In this document: in pieces, positions 14,385 to 43,546 of the stretch
Position numbering within the stretch: the first letter of the stretch is position 1
How the letters are laid out: every line of letters starts with the position of its first letter
IMG/VR virus record: IMGVR_UViG_3300038549_000020
Location: 1 to 62,819 of that record
Strand: one strand, 5' to 3'
Length of the DNA stretch: 62,819 nucleotides
Source: a virus
Made by a program: the position numbers and the translations under genes
Notes under the pieces: generated by a model
What the model was told of the DNA's origin: nothing
Seen by the model: the letters and a program-made list of their open reading frames with translations, nothing else
Database searches by the model: none

Positions 14385-14619
14385 GATTGCAGCATATCTG
14401 TCAACAATCGGGCCGCGTGACGCCCAGGCCGCACCAGCCCGGGCGTCACGCTCGATACGGATCCGGCCGGCGTCTGCCAGACCCGCACCACCCATCGGTG
14501 GGCGACAGAGCCGGCTCGTCGGGATGCCGGATCCCGCCAGCACAAACGGCCCACACCGATAGTGGCGCCGGGTGCGGCCGGGGCTGACATCCACTCTGAG
14601 CGTCGCCCAAATTGGTATG

Positions 14620-14690
14620 TGTGTCTGGATGGATTCGAACCACCAACCTCCGGCGCGAAGACCGTCGCTCTGCCGTTGAGCTACAGACAT
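14620..14690 (-). tRNA. Irregular tRNA-like gene
   Basis: A 71-base minus-strand sequence with six of seven acceptor pairs (ATGTCTG/CAGACAC), a good D arm (GCTC/GAGC) and a good T arm with TTCGAAT. The anticodon arm does not form a normal 5-bp stem with a 7-base loop; the best fold leaves a 6-base CTTCGC loop. No anticodon can be assigned confidently. It could be a decaying tRNA, a decoy or an edited tRNA. Confidence 0.45.
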
Positions 14691-14854: not shown

Positions 14855-14939
14855 AGCGATGGCCATGTGCTTGTTAGCCCGGCCACCAGGGCTATCGCGT
14901 CCCGCTCCATGCGGTGCTGGGGGCGGATCGGCCGCGTCG

Positions 14940-15013
14940 TGGCGAGGACGGGATTTGAACCCGTGACCTCTGGGTTATGGGCCCAGCGAGCTACCGAGCT
15001 GCTCTACCTCGCG
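14940..15013 (-). tRNA. tRNA-fMet (initiator type, anticodon CAT)
   Basis: 74 bases with all arms intact: acceptor CGCGAGG/CCTCGC, D arm GAGC/GCTC with loop AGCTCGGTA, anticodon stem CTGGG/CCCAG with loop CCCATAA, T arm ACGGG TTCAAAT CCCGT. Initiator hallmarks are present: an unpaired first position (C1 opposite C72; host initiators have C1-A72) and three consecutive G-C pairs (GGG/CCC) next to the anticodon loop. The 3' CCA is not encoded. Closely resembles actinobacterial initiator tRNAs. Confidence 0.88.
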
Positions 15014-32286: not shown

Positions 32287-32520
32287 TCACCCCCGGCCCA
32301 CGAGGTTGAGAGCCTGGGTGACGGCGGCGTGCACGTCGGTGGTGGTGCGGCGAGACTCCCGCTCGGCCTTCAGTTGGCGCTCCAGGGTCGCGATCCGCTC
32401 AGCCCTAACCTCGGACCGCCGCTGAGTGACCGTGTACAGGGCGACGGCCACGGTCGCCAGGGCGCTCATGGTCGCGGCGACCAGGGCCAGGCCGATCTCG
32501 ACCGCGAGGTGGTCGCTCAT
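32287..32520 (-). CDS. Small membrane protein with coiled coil
   Basis: 77 aa from ATG 32520, overlapping the GGDEF gene stop. One membrane helix (IGLALVAATMSALATVAVALYTV) is followed by a charged coiled coil (RRSEVRAERIATLERQLKAERESRR). It is translationally coupled to the GGDEF protein and could anchor it or respond to its product; that is a guess. Confidence 0.62.
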   Translation of the reverse strand: MSDHLAVEIGLALVAATMSALATVAVALYTVTQRRSEVRAERIATLERQLKAERESRRTTTDVHAAVTQALNLVGRG

Positions 32521-33536
32521 GCCGCCACCTCCCGCCCGTACTGGCATCCGGGGCAGTCGACCCCGTCACCGAGGCATTCACACGGCGGGGCGTCCCGCAC
32601 CGTGCGCCGGATCTCCTCGGCAACCGGGGGCGGCATAACCCGGCGACCATCGGAGGGTAGGGAGGCGGGATCTCTGCGCCGCTGGGCCTTGGCGCAGTAC
32701 ATCCCGCGATCGGCCACCATCAAGGCATCACGCAGGGTGGTTGAGGGTCTGACGGGGGCAACGCCAACCGAGGCGGACACCTCCACGACCACCCCGCAGG
32801 TGAGCATGATTGGCGGCCCCAGGAGGGCATCCACGGACTTCGCCGCGACCATCGGGACGCCCTCGACCACGAGCGCGAACTCATCGCCACCGAGCCGTAC
32901 GGCGGCGAGGCACCCCTGCGTCAGGGGGAGCCTGACGGCCACGGCCCGCAGGACCTCGTCACCGGCGGCGTGACCGTATGTGTCGTTGACGACCTTGAAC
33001 CAGTCCAGGTCGACCAGGAGCAGCCCGGTCGCCTCGGCCAGCGGCCAGCGTGTCGTCAGCCACCGCCGGTTGGGGAGTCCGGTCAGATCGTCTCGATACG
33101 CCAGACGCTCGGCGTCCTGGCGCAGGAGACGCTCGATCGCGAGCGTCTCCTCGGCGGCCAGGGCGGCATGCTCTGCTGCGGCCAGCTGGGCCCGCACCAG
33201 GCGCAGGTCGTCATGTGCGGCCGTCAGGGCGTCCTCGGCCCCAACGAGAGCGACGACCAGATCCGCCCGATCGGTGGCGCCCAGCTCCGCCAGTGCGTCC
33301 CGCAGCTGCTCATCCAGCGCGGAGGCGGGAATGGCCGGGGCTGGCAGATTGGCCCATGCCAGCCCCGGCCCGTCCGGCCGTGGCGGGAGGTCGCCACCAC
33401 AGCCGGATGCACCAGCGTCACGGCGCCGGTGCGGATCCCCGGGAGGCATAGGGGAACACCCCCCCGGGGTTGGTGTGGCCCGCCGGCCGGGCCCTCCCTC
33501 CTGGCCGGCGGGAGATGTGGAGGCGTGCGCTGTCAT
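32517..33536 (-). CDS. GGDEF diguanylate-cyclase-like protein
   Basis: 339 aa from ATG 33536 (ATGA overlap). Residues ~1-70 are disordered and Pro/Gly-rich, ~98-145 form a coiled coil, ~147-300 a GGDEF domain: DDLTGLPNRRWL, the metal site LLLVDLDWFKVVNDTYGHAAGD (D176) and the intact signature GGDEF at 216-220. The inhibitory RxxD site expected upstream is not seen. The end has PPCECLGDGVDCPGCQ, a possible zinc site. All core catalytic residues are present, so synthesis of c-di-GMP or another cyclic dinucleotide is likely. Unusual in an early lytic phage operon. Confidence 0.85.
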   Translation of the reverse strand: MTAHASTSPAGQEGGPGRRATPTPGGCSPMPPGDPHRRRDAGASGCGGDLPPRPDGPGLAWANLPAPAIPASALDEQLRDALAELGATDRADLVVALVGAEDALTAAHDDLRLVRAQLAAAEHAALAAEETLAIERLLRQDAERLAYRDDLTGLPNRRWLTTRWPLAEATGLLLVDLDWFKVVNDTYGHAAGDEVLRAVAVRLPLTQGCLAAVRLGGDEFALVVEGVPMVAAKSVDALLGPPIMLTCGVVVEVSASVGVAPVRPSTTLRDALMVADRGMYCAKAQRRRDPASLPSDGRRVMPPPVAEEIRRTVRDAPPCECLGDGVDCPGCQYGREVAA

Positions 33537-35449: not shown

Positions 35450-35686
35450 CTATGCGGCGGCCGAGAGTGGCTGTGCGATGAGGTCGCGTGGGTCGACGCC
35501 CAGCTCGTGCGCGATCGCTTCGAGATCGCTCAGGCTGATTTCGGCCTTGCCATTGATGCGCACGGTCAGGTACTTGACCGTCCAGCCGAGACGCCTGGCC
35601 AGCTCGGTGGCCCTGAGCGGCGGATCCTGGCGCGCCATTTCGACCCTGATGCCGACTCTGGCCAGCTGTACCAAGGTGTGTTCCAT
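35450..35686 (-). CDS. Cro-like HTH protein
   Basis: 78 aa. A single Cro/C1 HTH (VGIRVEMARQDPPLRATELARRLGWTVKYLTVRINGKAEISLSDLEAIAHELGVDPRDLI). Closely similar in layout to the divergent repressor's HTH. It is transcribed leaderlessly from a promoter overlapping an operator and starts the lytic operon, the position of cro. Expected to turn down the repressor. Confidence 0.8.
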   Translation of the reverse strand: MEHTLVQLARVGIRVEMARQDPPLRATELARRLGWTVKYLTVRINGKAEISLSDLEAIAHELGVDPRDLIAQPLSAAA

Positions 35687-35692
35687 GCATCT

Positions 35693-35754
35693 AGTTTCTT
35701 GCCTAGCGGGGAAGACGTCAACCCGTGACAGTAAGCTCATGTCATGGCAAGAAA
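35693..35754. promoter_or_regulatory. Early promoter with inverted operator sites
   Basis: Minus strand: TTGACG (35721-35716), 17 bases, GAAACT (35698-35693), then six bases and ATG 35686. The 9-base sequence TTTCTTGCC at 35695-35703 overlaps the -10, and its complement GGCAAGAAA lies at 35746-35754, giving two candidate half-sites or operators for the repressor and Cro-like protein. Confidence 0.7.
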
Positions 35755-35810: not shown

Positions 35811-36248
35811 ATGGAAGACTCTTGCGGTATGGGCACGCAGGGAACCGCTACGGCAACCACGCTCCAGGCGAGGGTCGCCACTGAGATCCGCGTCGAGCTG
35901 GCCAGGCAGAACATCAGGGCGTCTGAGCTGGCGAGACGACTGAACGAGGCGGACAAGTGGGTGAGTATTCGCCTGCGGGGGCTGACGCCGATCACACTGA
36001 CTGACCTGGAGCGGATCGGCAAGGCTCTCAGGGTGGATCCGGCCGCCCTGCTACCCCGTGGCCGCCCAAACGGGTCGATCGAGAAATACCATGATCTCGC
36101 CAGCGAGCCAAATGGCGATGAGATCGCACCGATTGGACGACCACGGTCGGGCACCGGTCGTTACGGCGGCCCTGAAGGGGATCGCCGCCCCCGACCGATA
36201 ACACAGTCCGTGTACCCACTGTCACGAGCGGTTCCCGTAGCCGCATAG
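35811..36248 (+). CDS. Immunity repressor
   Basis: 145 aa from ATG 35811; TACAGC lies six bases upstream (leaderless). Residues ~20-78 are the HTH (LQARVATEIRVELARQNIRASELARRLNEADKWVSIRLRGLTPITLTDLERIGKALRVDPAALL). The C-terminal ~65 residues are basic and disordered, with no peptidase domain, and end SRAVPVAA; the AA end resembles a degradation tag. Immediately upstream of and in line with the integrase, divergent from cro, the arrangement of phages with integration-dependent immunity. Confidence 0.78.
   Translation: MEDSCGMGTQGTATATTLQARVATEIRVELARQNIRASELARRLNEADKWVSIRLRGLTPITLTDLERIGKALRVDPAALLPRGRPNGSIEKYHDLASEPNGDEIAPIGRPRSGTGRYGGPEGDRRPRPITQSVYPLSRAVPVAA
36144..36197. other. Dyad-rich region in the repressor 3' end, candidate attP
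   Basis: CGGTCGGG (36144-36151) and CCCGACCG (36190-36197) are inverted, with further internal dyads (GGCGG...CCGCC). It lies in the repressor coding region next to int. In phages with integration-dependent immunity attP lies at this point in the repressor gene. No tRNA-like core was recognised, so the assignment is tentative. Confidence 0.3.
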
Positions 36249-36254
36249 TCGGGC

Positions 36255-37085
36255 ATGGGACTCATCGAGGAGTATCTTGACGAACTTCGGAGCATGGGCC
36301 GCTCCGAAGAGACCATCCGTTACACCCGGACCACCCTCCACCAGGCTGACCGCGCCGACCAGTTCGAACTCGGCCTATGCCTGGCCAGTCGCAACGAAGT
36401 TCAGGCATGGCTCAGACGCCCCACACGCGGGGGGAAGCGACTCGCCCCCAATACCCTCGCGAACAACTTCGACCGGTTGCGCGGATTCTTTCGCTGGGCC
36501 CATGGCCAGGGAAAACTTGATTGGGATCCGATGGCGTCCCTCACCCCACCAGGCAGACCGAAGGGCGTGCCGCGACCGGTCACCGATGACCAACTGGCGC
36601 TGATCGTCGCCAGCGTGCGGCACGCGATCCGGATCGCCGCGCTCCTGGCCGCGTGGGAGGGCATGCGCGCCGGAGAGATCGCCCGCATCGATCGAGAGGA
36701 CATCACCCCGGGTGGGGTGATCGTCTACGGCAAGGGTGGTCGTCAGCGGGTCGTGCCCACCCATCCGCTCGTGGCGGCCGAGGTGGCATCTCTCGCCCCC
36801 GGCAATCTCATGGCCCAGCTGGGAGTGCGGCCCGCAGCTCAGGCCGTGACATCCACCAGTGGGTATGAGTTCGGCAAGCTGGGCCTGGACGTCACCTTGC
36901 ACCAGTTGCGGCACTGGTTCGCCACGACATTGATCAACGCTGGGTGGTCGACCAGGGTCGTGCAGGTCCTCCTCGGGCACGCCTCGGTGGCGACCACGGA
37001 GGTGTACACCGAGGTTGCCGGCCACAATCTCGGCCAGGCCGTGGCGGGCCTGCCCAGTCTTGGACTGGACGGACCCGCCACATGA
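36255..37085 (+). CDS. int: Tyrosine integrase
   Basis: 276 aa. N-terminal SAM-like domain (LIEEYLDELRSMGRSEETIRYTRTTL) and catalytic domain with R138 (EGMRAGEI), K160 (YGKGGRQRVV), H216xxR219 (LHQLRHWFAT), H242 (LLGHASVATTEVY) and nucleophile Y251, the full R-K-H-R-H-Y set. Starts six bases after the repressor stop, so the two are one operon. The protein is short and lacks an obvious arm-binding domain, as in compact actinophage and XerC-like integrases. Confidence 0.9.
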   Translation: MGLIEEYLDELRSMGRSEETIRYTRTTLHQADRADQFELGLCLASRNEVQAWLRRPTRGGKRLAPNTLANNFDRLRGFFRWAHGQGKLDWDPMASLTPPGRPKGVPRPVTDDQLALIVASVRHAIRIAALLAAWEGMRAGEIARIDREDITPGGVIVYGKGGRQRVVPTHPLVAAEVASLAPGNLMAQLGVRPAAQAVTSTSGYEFGKLGLDVTLHQLRHWFATTLINAGWSTRVVQVLLGHASVATTEVYTEVAGHNLGQAVAGLPSLGLDGPAT

Positions 37086-38642: not shown

Positions 38643-38693
38643 CCAACCCGGCGGGGCGCATCCCTCAGCGCCCGCCCTGACCTGGAGGACATG

Positions 38694-40115
38694 ATGACCA
38701 CTGACACCGCCACGGCCGGCGCCGTCGATCGCCTCGCCGGTCTCGTCGGCGCCACCGAAGGCGACCGACGGGCACGCCGACGTCTCCTCGATCGCGCTTC
38801 CCGCGTCCTGGCGGCTGACGCCGAGGCGGAGCGGCGGGCACGGTTCGCGATCGCCGAGGCCGAGCAGCGGGCGAAGGCGGTCGAGGCTGACGCCGAGGCG
38901 CGCATCCGGGCCGCCGAGGCACGGCTGCATGTGCAGCAGCGTGAGCGGGAGGCCAGCCGGGCGGAGCGGGAGGCGCAGCGCGCAGCGGACGCCGCAGCAC
39001 GCGAGGACCGCGCCGAGCGCGCAGCGCTGCGCAGCGCCCGCTACGCAGCGGCGCGTGACGCGTGCGGCGCGGCGGCACCAGCAGTGCTGTCCATGCTCGT
39101 CTACGGCGCAGCGGTCGCATCCGCCGTCTTCGGACAGGTCACCGTCGCCACCGGCCGCTACGCCTGGCCGATGTGGCGCGGACTGCTGCTTGCGGCATTC
39201 ATCGAACTCATGGCCCTGGCCATGGCCCTGACCGCCAACCGGCTACGGCTGCGCGGGGAGCGCGCCTTCGCCCCCCGGGTGCTCACGTGGGTGTTCGCGA
39301 GCTTCGCAGCGGCCGTCAACGTGTGGGGGCACTGGACAGACCCGCTCATGGCGGCGGGGCTGGGAGCGGCCTCGCTCGGCGGCATCACGCTGTGGGAGAT
39401 CCGGTCGTCGGCGCGGCACCGGGATGCGCTGCGCGCAGCGGGTCAGCTGGCGGAGCCCATGCCGCGGTTGGGGTGGCGGATGTGGGTGCTGCGCCCGCGC
39501 ATTGCTGCGGGTGCGTACCGGTTGGCGGTGCGCGCTGCGGTGTCCGATGCCGCTGCGCCACTCATCGCCGAGGCCGAGGCGCAGCGGGTGCTGCGACGCT
39601 CCGCGCGGGTGCTGCGCGGCGGCAAGGGTGCTGCGGCGGCGCTTCCCGCTGCGCTCGCAGCATCAGAGGTCGCAGAGGGTGCAGCGGGTGCTGCGGACGC
39701 CGATCTGTGGGCGGAGATCGACGCCCGCGACCCGTGGGCCGCAGCGGTGCGGCGCGACGACGACAGCGTGCAGCGGAGCGTCGCAGCATCCGCAGCGCTG
39801 CACCCGCAGCAGCTCCGCGCAGCACCGCGCCGGGGAGGGCGCAGCGCGGCGACCGTCCATCCGCTGCGTCCTGTCCGCAGCGCGCAGCGCAGCACCGCGC
39901 AGCGTGGCGCGGCACTGACCGACGACCAGATCGCAGCGGCCATCCGTGACGCCGTCGCAGCGGCGCGGCGAGGCGAGGCTGAGATGCCGTCGCAGCGGGA
40001 GCTGATCCGGATCGTCGCCACGCAGCACCCGACGGCCCCGGTCGTCGGGCCGCGGCGCATCGACCGGATCGCAGCGGAGATCGCAGCACCCATGTTCGCT
40101 GGTGTGGCGTCATGA
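38694..40115 (+). CDS. DUF2637/Spd-like membrane protein with coiled coil
   Basis: 473 aa from ATG 38694 (GGAGG upstream). Residues ~20-125 are a long Ala/Arg/Glu coiled coil. Residues ~125-235 carry four membrane helices (AVLSMLVYGAAVASAVFG, GLLLAAFIELMALAMAL, VLTWVFASFAAAVNVWGHW, MAAGLGAASLGGITLW), the DUF2637 pattern. The C-terminal ~190 residues are Ala/Arg-rich. DUF2637 proteins are encoded by actinobacterial conjugative plasmids and integrative elements near traB. The gene is saturated with GCAGC/GCTGC, unlike its neighbours. Confidence 0.75.
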   Translation: MTTDTATAGAVDRLAGLVGATEGDRRARRRLLDRASRVLAADAEAERRARFAIAEAEQRAKAVEADAEARIRAAEARLHVQQREREASRAEREAQRAADAAAREDRAERAALRSARYAAARDACGAAAPAVLSMLVYGAAVASAVFGQVTVATGRYAWPMWRGLLLAAFIELMALAMALTANRLRLRGERAFAPRVLTWVFASFAAAVNVWGHWTDPLMAAGLGAASLGGITLWEIRSSARHRDALRAAGQLAEPMPRLGWRMWVLRPRIAAGAYRLAVRAAVSDAAAPLIAEAEAQRVLRRSARVLRGGKGAAAALPAALAASEVAEGAAGAADADLWAEIDARDPWAAAVRRDDDSVQRSVAASAALHPQQLRAAPRRGGRSAATVHPLRPVRSAQRSTAQRGAALTDDQIAAAIRDAVAAARRGEAEMPSQRELIRIVATQHPTAPVVGPRRIDRIAAEIAAPMFAGVAS

Positions 40116-41449: not shown

Positions 41450-43546
41450 ATGGATCACCGGGGTCGTATCCCAGTCATCGCGACAGTGGGCTGCCTGGCC
41501 GCACTCGGGGCGGCCTTGGTGGTCCGGACCGTGCCCGGCATCCCCTGGTGGGCGCCGGGTGCGGCTGGCGCCATCCTCGGCGCCTTTGCCGGCATCGTCT
41601 GCCTGGCCACCCTCATACCCCTGGCCACGGGCCTGCACCGGGTGGTGTGTGTGGCGGCCGTGGGCGCCTGGGCGTCCTGGGCGTCCTGGCACGGCATGAC
41701 ACCCCTGGATGTGGTGTGGCTGCTGCTGGCTGCCGCTGTGCTGGCACTCCTGGCGGTGGCGCTGCCGACCGTGGGTGAGACGGTCGGCCCCGAGGTGGCG
41801 CCCCGCGACCGGCGGCCGGATGAGGTGCGCGCCCTGGAGGACCTGCTACGGCGGCTGACCAAGCAGCCGACGATCAGCGTCAGCAGGATCGACCCGTGGG
41901 AGCGGCCAAAGGACGGACTTCGCGCCCACGTCGACCTACCCGAGGGCATGACCATCAAGGACCTGGCCGGCTACTGCGACCGGATCGCATCATCACCGGT
42001 GCTGCGGTTGCCGCAGGGCTGCGCCGTGCGGGCGCTGGACGGCGCCTACCAGTGCGAGGCGGTCCTGGACATCATGACCAGGGACTGCCTGGCTGACACG
42101 GTCGTGATCGACGAGCCGGCGACCCCGGCATCGGTCAGGGACGAATTCACTGTCGTGTGCTCACCGAGGGGTGAGCGGCTATCGATCTGCCTGCGGATCA
42201 TGTCCATGGTGGTTGGTGGCACTATCGGATCGGGCAAGACGACCTTGTTGCACCGGATCATCATGTGGCTTGCACGCTGCACGGACGCCCTGGTGTGGAT
42301 CATCGACATGAACGGTGGCGGGCTGGGTGCGCCCTGGGCGCAGCCCTACCTCGACGGCAAGACCGATCGGCCGACCGTCGACTGGATCGCAGACTGTGAG
42401 GAGGAGGCTGCGCTCATGACCGCGGTTGCCAAGGCCGTGCTCATCGACCGCAAGACTTCGCCGCAGGCCAGGGCCGCCCGGCGTGCGGCCAACACCAATG
42501 TGATGCCCGTCAGTGCCGACCTCCCGGCGATCATCATCATCGCCGACGAGGGTGGAGAGATCCGCCAGACCATCACCCTCCTCGGCCGACTCGCGGGCGA
42601 ACGGATCTCCTCGATCGCCCAGATCGGCCGGGAGACCGCCGGCCGGGTCGTGCTGTCCGTCCTCCGCGGTACGTCTGACCTGCTGGACAAGGGCTTCCGA
42701 GCGGTCGCGGGGCTCCGGTTGTGCCTGCGGATGGACGAAGAGGGGGAAGCCGACCACATCCTCGGCCGCAACCCTGGGCGTACCCCGCTGCTGCACGTCG
42801 GCTCGGCCTGGCTGTACCGATCCGGCACCGACTATCGGCCCATCCTCGGCCGAACGGTCGACATCCCTCCGGACGCCATCGAGCGGCACGCGCTGGCCAC
42901 CGCACGCCTTCGCCCCCAGTTGGACGAGCGTGGACAGCTCATCGCTTCCCAGGTCGATGCGGTCGCCGTCCTTGGTGGCATCAGGCCGGACAACATCCGG
43001 CACCTGCTCAGCCTGCCTCCGCTGGCCGATGCGGCGGCGGGCCACGCGTACAGCATGCGGTGGCGCCGGTATCGGGACCGGCTGGCGGCCCGCGACGGCA
43101 CCGGACCGGTCGAGCCGATCCGCCCAGCCGACTCACCCACGGTCGCCCCGGCGGGCAGCAGCATGGAGCGACTGCTCATGGCGACCGGGGTCACAGGTCA
43201 GGACGGGCCGGAGCCAGGAGCCACACCCGAGCAGATACAGAGGGCGGCCCTCGACGCCGTAGCGGTCGGTGACGAGTTCGCGGCGCTCACCTCAGCCGAG
43301 CATTTCGTCCGCGACGCCCAGGAGCCGCGGCCCGTCAGCGTCCCGGCCAGGGTCGAGCCCATCACAGGACGAGAGATGATCCTGGCCGTCCTGCAGGACG
43401 CCCACCCCGACGGGCTCACGGCCGGGCAGATCGAGACTCAGCTACGAGAGCGCGGCACACCATTGAGCCGTGGGCGGCTTTATGAGCTGCTGAGGGACAT
43501 GCAGTTGCCGAGGGATGGACAGCAGTACCTGTACCCTGAGCGCTGA
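41450..43546 (+). CDS. FtsK/SpoIIIE (TraB-like) DNA translocase
   Basis: 698 aa, GAGGAGG upstream. Residues 1-~110 carry about four membrane helices. The motor domain has Walker A GGTIGSGKTTLLHRI near 255-269 and Walker B AIIIIADEGGEIRQT near 360-374, plus an ISSIAQIGRET segment. The C-terminus (~615-698) ends in a winged-helix-like part (GREMILAVLQDAHPDGLTAGQIETQLRERGTPLSRGRLYELLRDM), comparable to FtsK gamma or TraB DNA-recognition domains. In actinobacterial plasmids a single protein of this type moves double-stranded DNA between cells. In a phage it might move or segregate DNA. Confidence 0.85.
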   Translation: MDHRGRIPVIATVGCLAALGAALVVRTVPGIPWWAPGAAGAILGAFAGIVCLATLIPLATGLHRVVCVAAVGAWASWASWHGMTPLDVVWLLLAAAVLALLAVALPTVGETVGPEVAPRDRRPDEVRALEDLLRRLTKQPTISVSRIDPWERPKDGLRAHVDLPEGMTIKDLAGYCDRIASSPVLRLPQGCAVRALDGAYQCEAVLDIMTRDCLADTVVIDEPATPASVRDEFTVVCSPRGERLSICLRIMSMVVGGTIGSGKTTLLHRIIMWLARCTDALVWIIDMNGGGLGAPWAQPYLDGKTDRPTVDWIADCEEEAALMTAVAKAVLIDRKTSPQARAARRAANTNVMPVSADLPAIIIIADEGGEIRQTITLLGRLAGERISSIAQIGRETAGRVVLSVLRGTSDLLDKGFRAVAGLRLCLRMDEEGEADHILGRNPGRTPLLHVGSAWLYRSGTDYRPILGRTVDIPPDAIERHALATARLRPQLDERGQLIASQVDAVAVLGGIRPDNIRHLLSLPPLADAAAGHAYSMRWRRYRDRLAARDGTGPVEPIRPADSPTVAPAGSSMERLLMATGVTGQDGPEPGATPEQIQRAALDAVAVGDEFAALTSAEHFVRDAQEPRPVSVPARVEPITGREMILAVLQDAHPDGLTAGQIETQLRERGTPLSRGRLYELLRDMQLPRDGQQYLYPER

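Follow-up and report, generated by a model that had tools for sequence, protein, structure and literature searches.

Does an actinophage encode a working enzyme for the synthesis of c-di-GMP, and what would the phage gain from raising this second messenger in its host? The question is raised by a gene for a GGDEF protein, the only one with such a domain in the 62.8 kb IMG/VR virus record IMGVR_UViG_3300038549_000020, whose full length of 62,819 nucleotides was analyzed and is referred to below as the window. The window represents a tailed, temperate actinophage, presumably infecting filamentous soil bacteria. Its terminase and the one encoded by Thermobifida phage P1312 share 63% identity, and it has matches to major-head and portal proteins. 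No close DNA relatives were found among phage records, and neither P1312 nor Streptomyces phage Dagobah carries a GGDEF gene. In addition, open-access papers yielded no description of a GGDEF protein in an actinobacteriophage.

The GGDEF gene and its operon

The gene product consists of a disordered N-terminus, a long helix (residues 90-147) and the GGDEF domain (residues 146-287). Pfam family GGDEF (PF00990) matches the domain over its full length (profile positions 1-159 of 161) with an E-value of 5e-23 and a score of 82 bits against a curated cut-off of 23.8. The AlphaFold2 monomer model is confident over both the domain and the long helix, with pLDDT values mostly between 91 and 98 for residues 101-280, and depicts the palm-like GGDEF fold preceded by a helical stalk. 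Foldseek searches of solved structures with this model returned SiaD in complex with its activator as the best match (7e-14), followed by PleD (1e-12) and WspR, while the best matches among viral proteins were phage G gp350 and the SP-15 diguanylate cyclase. The length, the E-value and the predicted fold exclude a chance assignment.

Table 1 Positions of the window features discussed in the text
Feature	Coordinates	Strand	Evidence or remarks
Portal-domain ORF, 953 aa	5110-7971	-	portal domain (residues about 51-423) joined to an unbroken run of 88 Gly-X-Y triplets (residues 422-685)
Two tRNA genes	14619-14690, 14939-15013	-	one Met (CAT), the other without an anticodon call by ARAGORN
Small membrane protein, 77 aa	32287-32520	-	single hydrophobic segment, then charged coiled-coil-like helix
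GGDEF protein (predicted diguanylate cyclase), 339 aa	32517-33536	-	ATG start at 33536
Protein B, 320 aa	33533-34495	-	C-terminal CGR...CRRCWPDGSP motif; start overlaps stop of A
Protein A, 275 aa	34495-35322	-	clear ribosome-binding site AGGAGGA
Cro-like HTH protein, heading the operon	35450-35740	-	HTH_3 5.9e-8; phrog_4583 2.3e-8
Repressor-like HTH protein, transcribed away from the operon	35811-36248	+	phrog_4583 transcriptional repressor 2.5e-9; HTH_26 weak
Tyrosine integrase	36255-37085	+	Pfam Phage_integrase 1.9e-19; PHROG integrase 3.8e-39
DUF2637-like membrane protein	38691-40115	+	by inspection
FtsK/TraB-like P-loop protein	41450-43546	+	sister-phage counterpart matches FtsK_SpoIIIE (1.5e-8)

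On the minus strand, the gene order runs from the cro-like gene through A, B and the GGDEF gene to that of the small TM/coiled-coil protein (Table 1), and three junctions overlap, with TGATG joining A to B and ATGA joining both B to the GGDEF gene and the GGDEF gene to its small downstream neighbor. These overlaps confirm the arrangement described in the initial annotation, which had placed the cyclase in translational coupling with a small membrane/coiled-coil protein and with two proteins of unrecognized family behind cro. Searches of Pfam and PHROG gave no family match for either A or B. From the gene order, we infer that the operon is expressed early in infection or induction, as part of the lytic program. 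A consensus search of the operon found no sigma-70 promoters, and an Rfam search, which would have reported a c-di-GMP riboswitch, gave just two tRNAs. No genes for an EAL phosphodiesterase or WhiB were found in the window, which thus does not hold a self-contained module for c-di-GMP turnover.

Several smaller features of the operon were also noted. An internal ATG may be the true start of the cro-like gene, and the C-terminal motif of protein B is zinc-binding-like. The GGDEF protein has a Cys-rich, zinc-binding-like tail at residues 319-331 (CECLGDGVDCPGC), which is absent from the GGDEF proteins of the two phages described below as the sister phage and L038.

Active site and predicted product

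In the domain, the motifs D149/L/T, N156-R157, D176-L-D178, F180-K181, N184-D185-TYGH189 and G192-D193 were identified, as were R214-L-G216-G217-D218-E219-F220, S256-x-G258, D276, Y280 and K283. Alignment with the solved diguanylate cyclases TpbB, T. maritima DGC and PleD places the metal ligands D176 and E219 and the guanine-recognition pair N184 and D193 in register, as it does K181, H189 and the GGDEF residues, and the aligned catalytic and guanine columns are almost invariant among 145 collected GGDEF domains. Together with the Pfam match, this bears out the earlier claim of an intact domain with all core residues, and the window protein is, with good confidence, predicted to be a catalytically active diguanylate cyclase. 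It has in common with the canonical enzymes PleD, WspR, SiaD and TpbB the fold, all catalytic and guanine-recognition residues and a helical stalk before the domain. Unlike them, it lacks the primary I-site, has shortened loops, and contains no sensor domain of its own, with a separate TM/coiled-coil ORF instead.

The RxxD motif upstream of GGDEF that marks I-site-regulated diguanylate cyclases is missing from the window domain, and the residues aligned with the PleD I-site are neither R nor D. The absence of this inhibitory site had been correctly noted; the accompanying claim that activity would not be product-limited went too far, as other feedback is possible and 12 of the 36 sampled chromosomal actinobacterial GGDEF domains also lack the primary I-site. 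Among actinobacterial mobile-element and phage GGDEF domains, the window included, none of 15 has the I-site, compared to 24 of 36 chromosomal domains (Fisher p=6e-6, a value inflated by related sequences). The loops of the window domain are also shorter than those of most chromosomal homologues.

The GGDEF enzymes of the Hypr type that make cGAMP carry a Ser at the position equivalent to D193 (PMC6456294). The window protein and Hypr enzymes such as GacA have the GGDEF fold in common; a Hypr cGAMP synthase, which requires Ser or Thr at this base-recognition position, was ruled out by Asp193. Because Asp193 stands where Hypr enzymes have Ser, a GTP-specific enzyme that makes c-di-GMP is predicted, and the residues point to standard 3',5'-c-di-GMP as the product rather than an immune-type nucleotide.

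Recurrence in other phages and on mobile elements

Direct protein scans reached no close viral relative, and a sister phage was found instead by way of the terminase. Only one of 44 terminase-related records, many of which are fragments, carries a GGDEF gene, and the gene is thus regarded as accessory. This record (38.4 kb; L239) has a terminase 76-77% identical to that of the window and a GGDEF protein, with the signature GGDEV rather than GGDEF, that is 43% identical in the best tblastn segment. The gene lies downstream of a cro-like gene, its start lies inside the stop of the preceding gene, and a 110-aa TM/coiled-coil protein is encoded one ORF beyond it.

A second phage (L038, 40.8 kb) is also tailed and encodes a terminase, major head and tape measure of its own; no protein-level matches were found in it to the called virion genes of the window. 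Its integrase (37%), cro-like protein (36%), protein B homologue (34-35%, E=4e-35) and GGDEF protein (44%), however, all match their window counterparts. The B homologue sits just upstream of the GGDEF gene, the stop codon of the latter lies in an overlap with the gene for a 119-aa TM/coiled-coil protein, and the cro-like homologues occupy the same place in both phages as in the window. Homology of protein A to the L038 ORF at the equivalent place was considered and rejected, as no similarity was found. Since the integrase, cro, B and GGDEF genes match and the virion genes do not, the block moves between virion types, and its presence in at least one virus with an unrelated particle suggests that it is kept for a purpose. 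The coupled gene arrangement described above is thus further backed by its recurrence in two other actinophages.

In a third actinophage (L057), the GGDEF gene comes after integrase, repressor and excisionase-like genes, with two ORFs in between. At 44-47% domain identity, the window shares 17-18 of 18 active-site residues with each of the sister phage, L038 and L057 (hypergeometric p 1e-5 to 8e-8); such conservation would be expected of a working enzyme and is by itself no proof of function in the phage. Two further records were left out as support for the block, one (L098) with its GGDEF gene in an AICE-like context and the other (L119) another phage without the block.

In a wider search, 101 phage-collection records matched the window GGDEF protein, none of which are named actinobacteriophages and 27 of which are phage contigs without a name, most of them faecal. 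Short GGDEF proteins, several of which begin with a hydrophobic segment, were found on AICE-like loci and plasmids of Streptomyces, adjoining Rep, DUF2637 or FtsK genes, and a tblastn search with one of them matched 182 Streptomyces plasmid records. Like the window protein, these proteins (e.g. those of pFRL1 and pRVR1) are short single-domain GGDEFs with no I-site on actinobacterial mobile elements; they differ in that the hydrophobic N-terminal segment, in those that have one, is part of the GGDEF protein itself, whereas in the window it lies in the next, coupled gene and in a tailed-phage context. The plasmid-borne pCdgG of S. venezuelae, already listed (PMC6205966), is a possible relative. 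In a tree, the plasmid and AICE proteins form a clade with 99/96 support, and the window protein, rather than joining it, pairs with the sister-phage protein at low support (86/45); because the branches are long, no common descent of the window and plasmid/AICE proteins is claimed. On pRVR1 (L240) and pFRL1 (L244), no more than about 2.5 kb separates the GGDEF gene from genes for WhiB and Lsr2, and dnaN is nearby, so that three kinds of host regulator stand in one stretch.

Diguanylate cyclases of mobile elements, phage ones included, are already known (PMC10672970). Those of the SXT/R391 ICEs (DgcK, DgcL) and Dgc137 of the Vibrio island VPII, which alters host physiology (PMC10672970), are likewise carried on mobile elements, but these are Gram-negative and non-phage. 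Yuavirus-type phages and Bacillus phages G and SP-15 encode GGDEF proteins as the window does, those of G and SP-15 being the fold matches given above, with hosts and gene neighbors that differ from those of the window. The Yuavirus-type proteins are about 150 aa in length and have AGDEF rather than GGDEF, as observed in phages of Bordetella and Pseudomonas (L014 3950-4408 and L018 3938-4408); in the Yuavirus-type phage CN1, the gene next to the GGDEF-like gene is annotated as an antirestriction protein. What is new here is the actinophage setting, the recurring block of cro, B, GGDEF and TM/coiled-coil genes, and the split membrane partner.

Possible roles of the cyclase

In Streptomyces, c-di-GMP loads BldD, and BldD represses development. 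In the reading that we prefer, a temperate actinophage would make an active diguanylate cyclase early, from the operon headed by the cro-like gene. The long helix before the GGDEF domain would allow dimerization of the cyclase, the co-translated TM/coiled-coil protein may anchor or activate it at the membrane, and an enzyme with no primary I-site could raise the c-di-GMP level of the host. If the host contains BldD, more c-di-GMP would keep this repressor of development loaded and the mycelium vegetative, with no aerial growth or sporulation, which would be the state best for phage spread. We put the probability of this whole explanation at roughly 0.45. The intact residues, predicted fold, operon order and recurrence of the block were observed, and the activity, timing, membrane partner, host and BldD link are the parts that we infer. 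The role itself, holding the host vegetative via BldD as the initial annotation had proposed, is plausible, and that c-di-GMP is raised for this purpose is judged to have somewhat less than an even chance.

Host development restricts phage spread in Streptomyces (PMC10117723). The S. venezuelae phage Alderaan formed larger plaques, with no regrowth, on a vegetative-locked bldN mutant and smaller plaques on a hypersporulating bldD mutant (PMC10117723), which agrees with the direction that this role requires. The GGDEF genes beside WhiB and Lsr2 on the two Streptomyces plasmids also count for a developmental role. Against the proposed hold on host development, the phenotypes of BldD loss and the effects of c-di-GMP through BldD vary from one species to another, and an S. 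ghanaensis bldD mutant was delayed in sporulation (PMC7026642). Actinophages carry the host-development transcriptional regulators WhiB and Lsr2 (PMC8612146). A broader and more tentative proposal is a swappable early "development-lock" module of actinophages, in which a cyclase and a separate membrane/coiled-coil activator would override the host BldD checkpoint as the enzymatic counterpart of these phage-borne regulators.

As related GGDEF genes occur widely on plasmids and AICE-like elements, which have no lytic phase, the function may not concern lysis. An active cyclase could instead help the element to maintain or transfer itself in a lysogenic or plasmid-like state, for example by slowing differentiation of newly entered mycelium. 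The compact GGDEF genes next to Rep, DUF2637 and FtsK in AICE-like and plasmid loci, including the 182 plasmid records, speak for this, as do the DUF2637-like and FtsK/TraB-like genes on the other strand of the window and the FtsK/SpoIIIE match in the sister phage. In all three phages, however, the GGDEF gene belongs to the operon on the cro side, which a lysogen should not express, and the tree gives the window protein no secure place in the plasmid clade; we consider this explanation rather unlikely. An effect of c-di-GMP on host surface glycans or matrix, leading to superinfection exclusion or altered release or adsorption, is improbable. In E. coli, a surface glycan that serves as a phage receptor is under c-di-GMP control (PMC8669472), and the SP-15 cyclase gene stands among glycosyltransferase genes, but no glycan genes adjoin the GGDEF gene of the window.

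The remaining alternatives concern the enzyme itself. Shortened loops and the GGDEV of the sister phage would suit a catalytically dead domain kept as a scaffold for binding GTP or c-di-GMP; with all catalytic residues conserved across four phages and the predicted fold intact, this is quite improbable. The suggestion that the phage floods or confuses cyclic-nucleotide immunity (CBASS, Panoptes or similar) would fit the palm fold that Panoptes OptS and GGDEF domains have in common and the response of such systems to changes in the nucleotide pool (PMC12657218). It found no backing in the window, where PADLOC returned no defence-family matches among ten operon-region proteins and D193, being neither Ser nor Thr, predicts plain c-di-GMP, already present in cells; a decoy of this kind is therefore very improbable.

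If the cyclase is active, a phage enzyme would make the signal at the top of the host developmental network, and whether phages steer bacterial multicellular development would become a one-gene experiment. If the development-lock proposal holds, a virus would steer this development by making the second messenger of its host. The block also provides a gene that could be used as a c-di-GMP tool and a candidate for a new partner of diguanylate cyclases.

Outside the operon, the DUF2637-like and FtsK/TraB-like genes lie across the integrase from it, as in actinobacterial conjugative elements, and the window phage may have a partly plasmid or AICE character. The window also contains two tRNA genes (Table 1). 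In the portal ORF, the Gly-X-Y stretch is collagen-like and is followed by a C-terminal part with Cys pairs. No collagen-like run was found in positions 2600-7500 of P1312, and a run of 34 triplets lies beside the terminase of the sister phage (L159).
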